From positions 1-49,716 of the forward strand of contig JALHOE010000042.1 in the NCBI GenBank assembly GCA_022843175.1: DNA of 49,716 nucleotides. The letters are read 5' to 3'. The DNA comes from Deltaproteobacteria bacterium (GTDB lineage Bacteria; Myxococcota_A; Polyangia; Polyangiales; JADJMO01). Of this stretch, positions 6,608 through 10,933 are shown piece after piece; the stretch's first letter is position 1, and each line of letters begins with the position of its first letter. Below the pieces are notes generated by a model, which was not told the DNA's origin, made no database searches, and saw only the letters and a list, made by a program, of their open reading frames with translations. The position numbers were made by a program, and so were the translations under genes.

Positions 6608-6897
6608 CCCGAGGCGAACCCGGCGCGCCGAGCGCTCTTGGACTCCGCGCGGCCCTCGACGTTCGCGGCGAACACGTCGTCGAGGGAGACCAGGTAGAGA
6701 TCGCCCTTCAGCGTGCGCGCCTGGAGGTGATGCCCACGCACCGCGAGCGCCTCGATCCCCGACACGGTCAGGCCGACCGAGCTCTTGGCGAGGTAGAGGG
6801 TCACGGTGGTCTTCTGCGGGAGCTCACGGAAACCGCGCTCGTCGGCGGCGCCGGCGTCGCAGATCTTGAGGACTTCCTGGATATCTTCAGGGCTCAC
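6604..6897 (-). CDS. 97-residue conserved-looking protein coupled to sigma factor
   Basis: The GTG at 6895-6897 overlaps the TGA of the sigma factor gene by four bases (GTGA), and the stop overlaps the TTG start of the acyltransferase, so this is the middle gene of a coupled three-gene unit. The protein is soluble, mixed alpha/beta, with no signal peptide or membrane segment. It starts MSPEDIQEVLKICDAG and contains KTTVTLYLAKSSVGLTVSGIE and LKGDLYLVSLDDVFAANVEG, then a basic tail. I recognise no named family. Its place directly after an ECF-type sigma gene is where an anti-sigma factor often sits, but it lacks the zinc-binding His/Cys motif and membrane helix of common anti-sigma proteins, so that role is only a possibility. 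Confidence 0.72.
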   Translation of the reverse strand: MSPEDIQEVLKICDAGAADERGFRELPQKTTVTLYLAKSSVGLTVSGIEALAVRGHHLQARTLKGDLYLVSLDDVFAANVEGRAESKSARRAGFASG

Positions 6898-7520
6898 GAG
6901 TGTGCTCCACGTTTGGGTTGTTCTTCCAAGTCGGTGCCCTTCACGCGGTCGGCCAGCGCCTTGCGAAGGGCGAGGCGTGCGCGGTGAAGGCGGGTCTTCA
7001 CCGTGGGTACGGTGAGGTCCAGGATGCTGGCGACGTCTTCGGTGGACATGTCCTCGAGCTCGCGGAGGACGAACACCGAGCGATACGTCTCGGGCAGCTC
7101 GTCGATGGCGACCGCGGCGTGCTTGGCGAGCTCGCGGTTTCCGGCGTCGTCGTCGACGGCGGTCGACCAATCGTCGACCGGCTCGGCGATCTCGCCCGCC
7201 TCGGTGTAGCGGGGCGACGCGTCCTCGAGGGAGGTCTCGCGGTGACGGCGCTCGGTCCGCATGCGCATCAGCGCCGCGTTGACCGTGATCCGGTAGAGCC
7301 AGGTGGTGAACGCGGAGTGCTCCTGGAACTGATCGATCTTGCGATAGACCTGGAGAAACGCGTCCTGCATGGCGTCCTGCGCGCGCGCTTCCTCACGGGT
7401 GAGCCGCAGGGCAAGGCGATAGACCTTGTCCTGGTGGCGGCGGACGATCTCGCGGAACGCGGTCTTGTCCCCCTTCTGCAGGCGCGCGACGAGCTGGAGG
7501 TCGCTCTCGGGGGCATCCAT
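6894..7520 (-). CDS. ECF-family RNA polymerase sigma factor
   Basis: This 208-residue protein has the two-domain layout of extracytoplasmic-function sigma factors, which direct RNA polymerase to special promoters. Region 2 spans about residues 15-85, with FREIVRRHQDKVYRLALRLT, the AQDAMQDAFLQVYRKID segment (region 2.2, core binding) and the FTTWLYRITVNAALMRMR segment (2.3-2.4, -10 recognition). An acidic linker follows, then region 4 at about 133-190, with AIDELPETYRSVFVLRELEDMSTEDVA and the helix-turn-helix LTVPTVKTRLHRARLALRKAL. ATG at 7518-7520 is the natural start. It is the first gene of a coupled unit with the 97-residue protein and the acyltransferase, suggesting an envelope-related regulon. 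It is divergent from 7641-8855, with 120 bases between. No membrane anti-sigma gene is next to it. Confidence 0.93.
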   Translation of the reverse strand: MDAPESDLQLVARLQKGDKTAFREIVRRHQDKVYRLALRLTREEARAQDAMQDAFLQVYRKIDQFQEHSAFTTWLYRITVNAALMRMRTERRHRETSLEDASPRYTEAGEIAEPVDDWSTAVDDDAGNRELAKHAAVAIDELPETYRSVFVLRELEDMSTEDVASILDLTVPTVKTRLHRARLALRKALADRVKGTDLEEQPKRGAHS

Positions 7521-7640: not shown

Positions 7641-8855
7641 ATGGCCAAGCGCGCTGAAGTTGGGGCGAAGTCCGGTAGAGGTCACCGCGCGGCGTTCGAG
7701 CGCGCTCGGGACGTGCGCCCGGCGGCGATCACCGGCCGCGAGCGGCCGCGCGACATCATCGAGGGGAAGTTCCCGGCCTACGTCGGCCGGCAGGAGCGCA
7801 TCGCGTTCTCGCTGATGCGCCGCTCCATCGAGGAGGACGCTCGGGTGTTCCTCACGCTCTCGGGCGCGATGACCCCGGCCGGTCTCCACGCGTCGTGCAT
7901 CATCCCGCTCATCGAGCGCGGGATCATCGACGTCATCACCACCACCGGCGCCAACCTCTACCACGACGCCCACCGCGTCATTGGCCACCGCATCCGCGAG
8001 ATCGACCCGAGCGCCGGCGACCTGCAGTACCGCCTCGCGAAGATCATCCGCATCTACGACCTCGGCTTCTGGGAGGAGACCCTCCTCGAGACCGACAAGC
8101 TGTTCTCGGCGATCCTGCGCCGCCCCGAGTTCCAGAAGCGGATGACCACGACCGAACTCCACTACAAGCTCGGCCGCCAGATCGCCGCGATCGAGGACGC
8201 GCTCGGGATCACCGAGCCCTCGCTGCTCGCCACGTCCTATCGCTACGGCGTGCCGATCTTTGTCGGCGCCGTGCAGGACGGCTCCATCTTCCTCAACATC
8301 GTCAAGCTCAAGCGCCTCCTCGGCGAGCAGTTCAAGCTCGAGATCGACATCAACGACGACGTCTTCGAGATGGGGGCGATCCAGCACCACTGCTTCTCGA
8401 CCGACAAGAAGAAGATGGCGATCTGGATCCTCGGCGGCGGCGTGCCCAAGAACTACACGCTCCAGGGCGAGCCGCTCCTCGACCAGATCCTCGGCGTTCC
8501 CACGCACGGCTTCGACCTCGATCTGCAGTTCTGCGTCGATCCGGTCGACAACGGCGCGCTGTCGTCCTGCCCGGCGGGCGAGGGGCACACCTGGGGCAAG
8601 GTCTCCGCCGAGAGCGTCGCCCACGGCTCGATGTACGTGCACACCGACGTGACCGCGGTCTTCCCCTGGCTCGTCTACGCGCTCCTCAGCGATCCGACGA
8701 TGCGTCGCGCGCCGTCGAGGCTCTACACCGCCCGCGATCGCGCGGTCGAGCGCCTGCAGCGGGCCGTCCTCGCGCGCCGCAAGTCGCTGATGAAGACCAT
8801 CGACTACCCGCTGCCGGAGCGCGCGGGCGTGAAGAAGAAGAAGAAGGCCCGCTAA
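7641..8855 (+). CDS. deoxyhypusine synthase-family enzyme (bacterial)
   Basis: This 404-residue protein is full length for the deoxyhypusine synthase (DHS) family, NAD-dependent enzymes that transfer the aminobutyl group of spermidine. Visible family features are the VFLTLSGAMTPAGLH segment, the DVITTTGANLYHD NAD-site motif, PIFVGAVQDGS, the IWILGGGVPKNY loop, and WGK with K320 at the position of the catalytic lysine that forms the enzyme-imine intermediate in eukaryotic DHS. It ends in a Lys-rich tail (KKKKKAR). Bacteria have no eIF5A, so the acceptor is probably a polyamine, as in homospermidine synthase, which evolved from DHS; that is inference. No polyamine gene is adjacent. The ATG at 7641 has only a weak Shine-Dalgarno. 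Its stop overlaps the convergent gene 8852-10933. Confidence 0.88.
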   Translation: MAKRAEVGAKSGRGHRAAFERARDVRPAAITGRERPRDIIEGKFPAYVGRQERIAFSLMRRSIEEDARVFLTLSGAMTPAGLHASCIIPLIERGIIDVITTTGANLYHDAHRVIGHRIREIDPSAGDLQYRLAKIIRIYDLGFWEETLLETDKLFSAILRRPEFQKRMTTTELHYKLGRQIAAIEDALGITEPSLLATSYRYGVPIFVGAVQDGSIFLNIVKLKRLLGEQFKLEIDINDDVFEMGAIQHHCFSTDKKKMAIWILGGGVPKNYTLQGEPLLDQILGVPTHGFDLDLQFCVDPVDNGALSSCPAGEGHTWGKVSAESVAHGSMYVHTDVTAVFPWLVYALLSDPTMRRAPSRLYTARDRAVERLQRAVLARRKSLMKTIDYPLPERAGVKKKKKAR

Positions 8856-10933
8856 CCCGCGTCGGGGGCGGGGGCGGTCGACTCGCGTACGATCACCAGC
8901 TCGAGCGTGTGCGAGCCGTCGATCGGGTCGGCGGCGTACAGAATCGCGCCGCCGCAGCCGAACATCACGGTGCCGTCGGCGAACGCGCGCGGCGCGCGCG
9001 ACTCGTTCGCGAGCACGCGGGGCGCGGCGCCGCCGACCCCGTTGTAGGCGTACGCGCGGAGCCGCGTGGTCGTGGGGGACGGCTTGGCGGCGAGCAGATA
9101 CAACGCCGAGCGGTCGCGTCCCGGCCGCGGCGGGGTGCGCGGGACGTTGACGAAGGACGCGGAGGTCTCGTCGGTCGAGATCACCGAGGACGCCTCGGTC
9201 ATGACGTCCATGGCGGGGGCGTTGGCGTGGGCGAGCACCGGCGCGTTCTCCATGCCGCTCGTCGCCATGCCGGCGCCCACGGTCAACCCGCCCGCGCCGT
9301 CGGCGTAGGGATAGACCTCGAGGAACGACCGGACCTCGTAGCTCCCGGCCGTGATCAGGGACCACGACGCCTTACCCGCCGTGGCGTTGATTCGCCCGAG
9401 CGCCATCGCCCCCGGAACCGTGACGCCCATGGTGACGGTCTCGCGGCGCACCAGCGTCCACAGGTTGGTCGCGTCGCCGAAGAACCGGGCCTCGATGAAG
9501 GTGGAGGGCCCGAACAGCGGCGTGTCGGCGGTGAGCGACATCGGCGCGGTGTAGTCGGCGCCGTTGCGCACGAGCAAGTCCACGGTGGTGCGCGTGAAGC
9601 CCAAGCGGCTGACGAGCGGGGTCGATCCGTTCAGCGCGATGACCGACGCCCCGTCGGCGCCGTTGCGCTTCTCGCCGATCGCGAGCACCACCGGATCCTT
9701 CCACGTGCCGCCGCTGTAGCGACGGCTGACGGCCTGGAACTCGCAGTCCTTCGCGGCCGCCGCGCAGCCCGCGACCCACGCGACGAACTCCGTCTCCGCG
9801 CCGGTCACGGTGAACAGATAGGGACCGACGCCCGCGGGAACGACGCCGTTGGTGTCACCGGGGAGCTTCGACAGGAGGCGCGCCGTCGACCAGTTGTCGG
9901 TCGACGTCCACGTCGAGGTGACGACGCGTCGCGTGTCGCCGCTGCCCTCGAGACCCGCGAGCACGATGCTGCCGTCGTCGAGGAGGCGATACTGGGGGTT
10001 CGCGTCGGCCGGGGCGACCTCGGCCTTGGGCGAGGGGGTCGACCACGAGCCCGACAGCGAGCGGGTGCGGACCGCCGGGCCGCCGGCGCCCTGCCAGGTG
10101 AGCGTGAGGAACCGGCCGTCGGGGAGGGCGTGCGCGTCGATGCGCGGCTTGCCGCTCGAGCCCGCGAGGTCGAGCGACTGCGCGACGCTCCAGCTTCCCT
10201 TGGCGCCGCCCTCGTCGGGGCGGAACACGATCGCGTTGCCGTTCGGCGCCGCCGCCCCGGCGCGGCTCCGCGTCACCAGCACCTGGCCCGTCGGCGCGGC
10301 GACCGCCCCGAGCTCGTCGGACGGGACGAGGGGCATCGCGGAGGCGAGATCCGGCGACCACTTGCCCTTCGAGTACACGCGCGCGTGGGCGCCGCCGTAG
10401 CGCACGGCGATCGCGGCTCCGTCCGCGATGGCGTTGATCTGCAGCGGGCTCGACTCGGTGATCGCGTCGGCGTCGACGTCGAGGCGCTCGTCGGGAGAGA
10501 TCGTCGAGGTCACCGGGTCGACCGTGCGCGCCCAGACCGCATAGCGGGTGCCGGTGTCGATCGCCTCGAGCATCACGATCATCAGCCGGCCGTCGTCGAG
10601 CCGCGCCATGCCGGCGTTGGCCACGCGGCGGAGCGAGTCGGGGTTGTGGTTCACCCGCACCGGCGCGTTGAACGCGGGGCCCTTGGCGCAGGTCACCGGC
10701 GCGCCGGTGTCGGGCGGCGCCGTGTCCGGCGTCGTCTCGGCGGGCGTGTCCATCGGCACGGAGTCGGCGGTGCTGTCGACCTCGGCCTCGGTCCCGGAGT
10801 CGGTCTCGGGCTGGGGCGTTTCGTCGTTGCCGCCGGCACAATGGACGGCGCCGACCGCGATCAGGGCGGCCGGGAGGACCATGAGCAGGGCGCGCCGGAA
10901 GCCGGGCGCCGAAAGGAAGCGCAGCGATCGCAT
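8852..10933 (-). CDS. large lipoprotein, possible beta-propeller
   Basis: This 693-residue protein has an Arg-containing N-region, a hydrophobic core and a lipobox ending AVGAVHC, giving a membrane-anchored lipoprotein. Residues about 35-80 form an Asp/Glu/Thr/Pro-rich linker (DSGTEAEVDSTADSVP and similar) typical of surface lipoproteins of this group. The body has a run of repeating beta-rich blocks such as DDGRLMIVMLEAI, LPDGRFLTLTWQG and DDGSIVLAGLEGS, each about 50 residues apart, which is what a six- or seven-bladed beta-propeller would look like. That fold is inferred from pattern only. No catalytic motif was recognised. It is convergent with the DHS-family gene (4-base overlap of stops) and divergent from corA. 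Confidence 0.7.
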   Translation of the reverse strand: MRSLRFLSAPGFRRALLMVLPAALIAVGAVHCAGGNDETPQPETDSGTEAEVDSTADSVPMDTPAETTPDTAPPDTGAPVTCAKGPAFNAPVRVNHNPDSLRRVANAGMARLDDGRLMIVMLEAIDTGTRYAVWARTVDPVTSTISPDERLDVDADAITESSPLQINAIADGAAIAVRYGGAHARVYSKGKWSPDLASAMPLVPSDELGAVAAPTGQVLVTRSRAGAAAPNGNAIVFRPDEGGAKGSWSVAQSLDLAGSSGKPRIDAHALPDGRFLTLTWQGAGGPAVRTRSLSGSWSTPSPKAEVAPADANPQYRLLDDGSIVLAGLEGSGDTRRVVTSTWTSTDNWSTARLLSKLPGDTNGVVPAGVGPYLFTVTGAETEFVAWVAGCAAAAKDCEFQAVSRRYSGGTWKDPVVLAIGEKRNGADGASVIALNGSTPLVSRLGFTRTTVDLLVRNGADYTAPMSLTADTPLFGPSTFIEARFFGDATNLWTLVRRETVTMGVTVPGAMALGRINATAGKASWSLITAGSYEVRSFLEVYPYADGAGGLTVGAGMATSGMENAPVLAHANAPAMDVMTEASSVISTDETSASFVNVPRTPPRPGRDRSALYLLAAKPSPTTTRLRAYAYNGVGGAAPRVLANESRAPRAFADGTVMFGCGGAILYAADPIDGSHTLELVIVRESTAPAPDAG

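Follow-up and report, generated by a model that had tools for sequence, protein, structure and literature searches.

A bacterial deoxyhypusine synthase homologue from a distinct clade, probably a polyamine synthase

Introduction

Two bacterial homologues of deoxyhypusine synthase (DHS) have been described as acting on small polyamines: SpeY, which makes homospermidine (PMC10407285, PMC9992855), and CdmS, which couples agmatine (PMC10981699). Bacterial homospermidine synthase (HSS) of the Blastochloris type is presented in PMC9992855 as non-homologous to such DHS-like enzymes. The DHS reaction steps as laid out in PMC7226451 served as the template for the mechanism that we propose below. For Myxococcus xanthus, PMC9548883 describes bioactive homospermidine lipids that are said to derive from arginine via putrescine.

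Here we analyse a DHS-family gene on a 49,716-nucleotide stretch of DNA (the window) from a Deltaproteobacteria bacterium of the order Polyangiales. The original prediction presented it as a DHS homologue in a bacterium without a known acceptor, a framing that overlooks the described bacterial homologues acting on small polyamines (PMC10407285, PMC9992855, PMC10981699). Because such homologues are known as polyamine synthases, and because no eIF5A scored above cut-off in the genomes we searched, the puzzle of the missing acceptor largely dissolves.

A full-length DHS homologue with its catalytic lysine

The gene (7641..8855, plus strand) is an intact open reading frame of 404 amino acids with an ATG start. 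Its one Pfam domain is PF01916, which spans residues 47-347 with 176.8 bits (cut-off 27, E 7.8e-52), and the protein is the sole PF01916 match of its genome (completeness 95%). Within GEGHTWGK (8577..8600, plus strand), K320 (8598-8600) stands opposite the catalytic Lys329 of human DHS. We assign the protein to the DHS superfamily because the Pfam score lies far above cut-off and the catalytic lysine sits in W-G-K. The alignment also locates TTGANLYHD at residues 101-109 (7941..7967), DGSIFLN with its aromatic residue 217 at residues 213-219 (8277..8297), and GGGVPKN at residues 265-271 (8433..8453), with N271 opposite human His288. An AlphaFold2 model of the protein (mean pLDDT 93.3, pTM 0.90) returned only DHS structures among its 50 top PDB matches, e.g., 8put, 1dhs, and 7cmc, at probability 1.00. 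The full-length DHS fold with K320 in WGK that had been read from the DNA alone is therefore borne out by the Pfam span, the lysine position, and the structural matches.

The gene looks like a single-gene unit, given a divergent gene for an ECF-type sigma factor on one side (6894..7520, minus strand; Pfam/NCBIfam) and, on the other, a convergent open reading frame of 693 amino acids (8852..10933, minus strand) that overlaps it by 4 bp and has no Pfam or NCBIfam match. No polyamine gene adjoins it in the window, and no Rfam family exceeded threshold there, so that no known riboswitch was seen.

Among the NCBIfam models, NF001980 ('homospermidine biosynthesis protein'), which we take from its family name to be SpeY, scored best by far, at 291.6 bits against a cut-off of 450. 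NF002006 was second (155.7 bits, cut-off 434), followed by TIGR00321 for DHS (139.5 bits, cut-off 304.25) and NF002699 for the agmatine-coupling CdmS (113.8 bits, cut-off 500). The protein thus misses the curated equivalog cut-offs for SpeY, CdmS, and protein-modifying DHS alike. It clearly leans to the SpeY family, yet it is no member by curated threshold.

Clade B and its sisters form a branch of their own

Of 183 genomes in the host order, 124 have a PF01916 match. The DHS homologues of the order sort into groups A, B, C, D, and a CdmS-type group, with the window protein in B; the 21 relatives from the order that were compared are 61-91% identical to it. A CdmS-type protein from the same order (L003) reached 587.8 bits against the NF002699 cut-off of 500. 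Scanning named genomes gave at least 584 relatives, of which we used the best 80. The top named ones belong to Myxococcota, and on that basis we take the host to be a myxobacterium. Among these 80, clade B occurs in Myxococcota (including Archangium) and, by the titles of metagenome-assembled genomes (MAGs), in Planctomycetota; a sister set of three rows, Bx, in Patescibacteria, Acetothermia, and one further bacterium; and group D in Acidobacteriota, Planctomycetota, and others.

Clade B formed one group in all three of our trees (79, 50, and 49 rows; support 98, 100/98, and 99/98), as did B, Bx, and D together (100, 100/100, and 100/100), separate from CdmS, group A, and the euryarchaeal proteins. 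The CdmS rows were a group of their own (100/100). The SpeY side of the trees consisted of three rows, none of them the cyanobacterial (Anabaena) SpeY. L122 was labelled SpeY-type by tree place; L123 scores 436.1 and the second L096 gene 458.4 (cut-off 450). These rows fell near B+Bx+D with a union support of 71/26 in the 50-row tree, and constraining the two together in the 49-row tree was not rejected (AU p 0.358). Joining B+Bx+D instead with six Nitrososphaeria/Methanoperedens rows was borderline (AU p 0.0508), and all three sets lay in one larger group (100/99) in that tree. Phylogeny, the check proposed with the original prediction, therefore did not place the protein firmly inside a characterised bacterial group, the scores being below cut-off and the union with SpeY unfirm. 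Clade B is a distinct branch for which we found no experimental test, and Bx and D are two further uncharacterised sisters. Our search of the literature on bacterial DHS homologues and on polyamines in myxobacteria or Planctomycetes, which left most subscription papers outside its reach, showed no paper on clade B among the entries listed.

The original prediction regarded the Lys-rich C-terminus as an added feature. The KKKKKAR tail is indeed present in the window protein (8832..8852, plus strand), but across the 44 clade-B rows (3 of them duplicates) the tails run from Lys-rich to Lys-free, and we set the tail aside as a conserved or added feature.

Several further observations concern the wider family. 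Three contigs titled Klebsiella pneumoniae or Bifidobacterium breve (L087, L088, and L090) carry clade-B genes that cluster with a Myxococcota MAG, and their MAG titles look wrong. In one Woesearchaeota genome (G201; L105 and L185), a group D homologue occurs together with a DHS of the human kind (408 bits, KHH motif). Five plasmid records held relatives at 27.5-29.2% identity; both of those tested (L072 and L073) exceeded the CdmS cut-off, the Nostoc plasmid homologue L072 with 590.7 against 500. On the Nostoc plasmid and on a Trichormus plasmid (L074), the DHS homologue lies beside rocD and iron-uptake genes. Two scans of viral contigs (63 and 77 pattern matches) gave no confirmed relative.

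Residues near the active site set the three groups apart

We counted residues over 41 distinct B rows (44 less the 3 duplicates), 3 Bx rows, 25 D rows, and 83 other rows. Position 217 is Phe, Tyr, or His in 69/69 B, Bx, and D rows (F217 in the window protein) and Gly in 82/83 others, among them the SpeY, CdmS, archaeal, and group A rows. The acidic E277 (8469..8471, plus strand) occurs in 68 of the 69 rows versus 2 of the 83 others, D294 in 68/69 versus 0/83, and S309 in 67/69 versus 1/83. In the alignment, with human DHS numbered as in PMC10981699, positions 218, 271, 307, and 320 correspond to Asp243, His288, Asp316, and Lys329, the His288 correspondence having been obtained by counting back from Lys329. 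Position 217 thus adjoins the substrate-binding position 218 and may play a part there.

K320 is kept in 40 of the 41 distinct B rows. The exception (L051:645-1904, G121) has Glu at this position, with WDE for WGK and hence no catalytic lysine; its genome contains three PF01916 matches. Group C (L066, L068, L070, and others) has W-D-K rather than W-G-K in 8/19 rows, and several genomes, G119 for one, contain this group together with clade B. Group A (L004-L030) has Gly for Asp109 and Arg for Lys270 in 27/27 rows.

Arginine decarboxylase accompanies clade B in some neighbourhoods and most genomes examined

L087 is a MAG under the title Klebsiella, with a clade-B gene that clusters with a Myxococcota MAG. 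There the arginine decarboxylase gene speA ends (TGA, 2216-2218) 5 bp before the clade-B ATG (2224). Its product scored 871.9 with NF003763 (cut-off 369) and 765.1 with TIGR01273 (cut-off 624.1). In L078, the SpeA gene is convergent to the clade-B gene and about 1.1 kb off. The two genes are about 24 kb apart in the 13.8 Mb Archangium genome (G197), and about 1 Mb or more apart in two single-contig genomes (G144 and G145). At the remaining clade-B loci, the flanks examined held no SpeA, SpeD, or arginase-family gene. An all-against-all comparison of flanking open reading frames in clade B showed no recurring polyamine gene; only DHS itself, lineage-specific genes, and antisense frames of GC-rich genomes recurred, and we dropped the idea of a conserved neighbourhood. 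In the Patescibacteria locus L096 (1909-6375), five genes on the same strand form an operon. They encode an arginine decarboxylase of the pyruvoyl type (206.2 bits with PF01862), the Bx protein, an agmatinase (TIGR01230, 201 against 174.3), a SpeY that is genuine by score (458.4 against 450), and a GNAT protein.

For gene content we compared 34 hand-picked genomes of the 183 in the order. Nineteen carry clade B, 13 by alignment and 6 by Pfam score band (G012, G049, G065, G117, G118, and G145). SpeA exceeded its cut-off in 17/19 of these and in 11/12 named-locus clade-B genomes, i.e., in 28/31 overall; the three without it are G117, G118, and, from the named loci, G188. In 26 of the 31, PF01916 matches nothing but the clade-B protein. 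Among the 19, SpeD (PF02675) was found in 12, SpeE-like matches above 100 bits in 11, the HSS/CASDH-type domain PF16653 in 4, and the arginase family, the only family searched for the step from agmatine to putrescine, in 14, with none in G005, G007, G064, G065, and G067. Canonical SpeE (TIGR00417 above cut-off) was present in none of the 19 and in 5 of the 34 overall, three of these having no DHS homologue. One genome (G069) has an apparent SpeD-SpeE fusion, with both matches in one 526-aa open frame (L156, C1:7887740-7888993).

The genome of the window encodes SpeA (717.2, cut-off 624.1) and two arginase-family proteins, of which the agmatinase-like one scores 167.8, just below the agmatinase cut-off of 174.3. 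It also encodes a SpeD-like protein, and its SpeE-like match passes the model for aminopropyltransferases of the membrane type (NF002956, 639.6 against 472), so that the genome may have two triamine routes. Three genomes (G109, G111, and G118) have no SpeD, no SpeE-like match above 100 bits, no PF16653 match, and no second DHS homologue, which leaves the clade-B protein as their sole triamine-synthase candidate among the families searched; G118 is assigned to clade B by score band only and also lacks SpeA. The clade-B enzyme thus seems to be the sole triamine route in some of its genomes.

Proposed function

The product of the window gene is probably a DHS-superfamily polyamine synthase that depends on NAD and transfers an aminobutyl group, most plausibly to form homospermidine. 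Direct observations cover the fold, K320, clade membership, the arginine-decarboxylase link in some relatives, and the lack of a detectable eIF5A; the reaction, the product, and the choice of diamine are our interpretation of them. A polyamine role is suggested by the NF001980 score, by SpeA lying beside clade B in L087 and L078 and occurring in most clade-B genomes, and by the position of Bx between arginine decarboxylase and agmatinase in L096. The diamine would be putrescine or agmatine, derived from arginine by way of SpeA. By analogy with DHS, SpeY, and CdmS, bound NAD would oxidise it, K320 would hold the butyl moiety as an imine, and this moiety would be transferred onto a second diamine, at its amine, and then reduced back. 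The product would be homospermidine, or a guanidino precursor finished by a ureohydrolase.

Several findings weigh against this assignment. The window has no adjoining polyamine gene, none recurs in relatives, and the SpeY cut-off is missed. An alternative triamine route is often possible, through the SpeD-like protein and aminopropyltransferase in the window's own genome and through SpeE-like matches above 100 bits in 11 of the 19 clade-B genomes. Three clade-B genomes lack SpeA, five of 19 lack the arginase family, and the own agmatinase-like protein falls just short of its cut-off. Bx and a genuine SpeY also share the L096 operon, so that the reactions of the two enzymes may differ.

If the assignment is right, clade B would be a further branch of bacterial enzymes that make triamines without S-adenosylmethionine. 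A bacterial gene annotated as 'deoxyhypusine synthase' does not necessarily point to hypusine. Myxobacteria, Archangium among them, carry clade B, and the relative M. xanthus is described in PMC9548883 as making homospermidine lipids. What remains of particular interest is the distinct clade, its changes close to the active site, and the operon that joins its Bx sister with SpeY.

Alternative readings

One may speculate, tentatively, that bacteria have evolved polyamine synthases from DHS in three lines, SpeY, CdmS, and B+Bx+D, and that the last has a reshaped pocket and catalyses its own reaction. Cells such as the Patescibacteria of L096 would use it with SpeY in one arginine-fed pathway. 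A longer or mixed aminobutyl polyamine would then be an example of the product.

A sub-case of the homospermidine assignment, which we consider somewhat doubtful, is a CdmS-like variant that joins agmatine to agmatine or putrescine, after which a ureohydrolase frees homospermidine. Such chemistry is described for CdmS (PMC10981699), and in L087 SpeA, whose product is agmatine, directly precedes the clade-B gene, with no arginase-family gene within the 10 kb examined. E145 and D152 lie opposite CdmS residues proposed in PMC10981699 to bind the second agmatine, with CdmS numbering transferred to L148 from its catalytic lysine. However, E145 is frequent in groups outside CdmS and hence not diagnostic, and we discarded it as a pointer to agmatine. 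The NF002699 score is only 113.8 against 500, and CdmS Ser67, the proposed first-guanidyl contact (PMC10981699), is Ala76 in 41/41 B rows and Ser in 6/6 CdmS rows.

It seems rather unlikely that B, Bx, and D make a product other than homospermidine, such as a longer aminobutyl polyamine, or act as a partner subunit of SpeY. The L096 operon with both proteins would fit this, as would the absence of the aromatic or His residue at 217, E277, D294, and S309 from the three SpeY-type rows. This is nevertheless a single operon and possibly a special case, and the 26/31 clade-B genomes with one PF01916 match have no SpeY partner to offer.

The original prediction left a choice between a polyamine synthase and an enzyme modifying a protein with an unknown target. 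The former is strengthened by the NF001980 affinity, by the neighbouring genes in L087, L078, and the Bx locus of L096, and by genome content. For the latter, modification of EF-P or another protein lysine, we see little prospect, and we regard protein modification by the window enzyme as unlikely. DHS ancestry would favour it, but TIGR00037 (eIF5A) was above cut-off in 0/12 genomes, the own genome included, versus 4/14 controls, and PF01287, an insensitive model that missed 2/4 archaeal controls, in 0/34. Ten weak TIGR00037 hits comprised the EF-P gene in six cases, other places in two, and genomes outside the EF-P search in two. EF-P carries the PGK tip lysine in 18/18 genomes, i.e., in 12 with clade B, 2 with another DHS group, and 4 with no DHS homologue, and is thus identical there with or without the clade-B enzyme. 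The window protein has N271 and L218 where human DHS has His288 and Asp243; archaeal rows likewise deviate at 218, and those in the alignment have Asn at 271, and so this difference is no argument against a protein acceptor. A non-functional or repurposed protein is scarcely credible, since the Glu at 320 in L051 concerns 1/41 distinct B rows, K320 is kept in the other 40, and the 21 relatives from the order are 61-91% identical.

Comparison with known systems

The probable polyamine synthase described here shares its presumed product with bacterial HSS, of whose domain (PF16653) its own genome has no match. With eukaryotic and archaeal DHS (1dhs, 8put, 7cmc) it shares the fold and the catalytic lysine; it differs in score (139.5 versus 304.25 bits), in N271 for His288 and L218 for Asp243, and in having no eIF5A above cut-off. 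CdmS is likewise a bacterial DHS homologue, with arginine-derived substrates (PMC10981699), but the window protein reaches 113.8 of the 500 bits needed, has Ala76 for CdmS Ser67, and falls in a separate tree group. SpeY is the best-scoring family and has the same conserved lysine, and the SpeY-type proteins L122 and L123 share with the window protein a one-residue insertion near residues 84-86. The window protein nevertheless scores 291.6 against 450 bits, and all three SpeY-type rows have other residues at 217, 277, 294, and 309.
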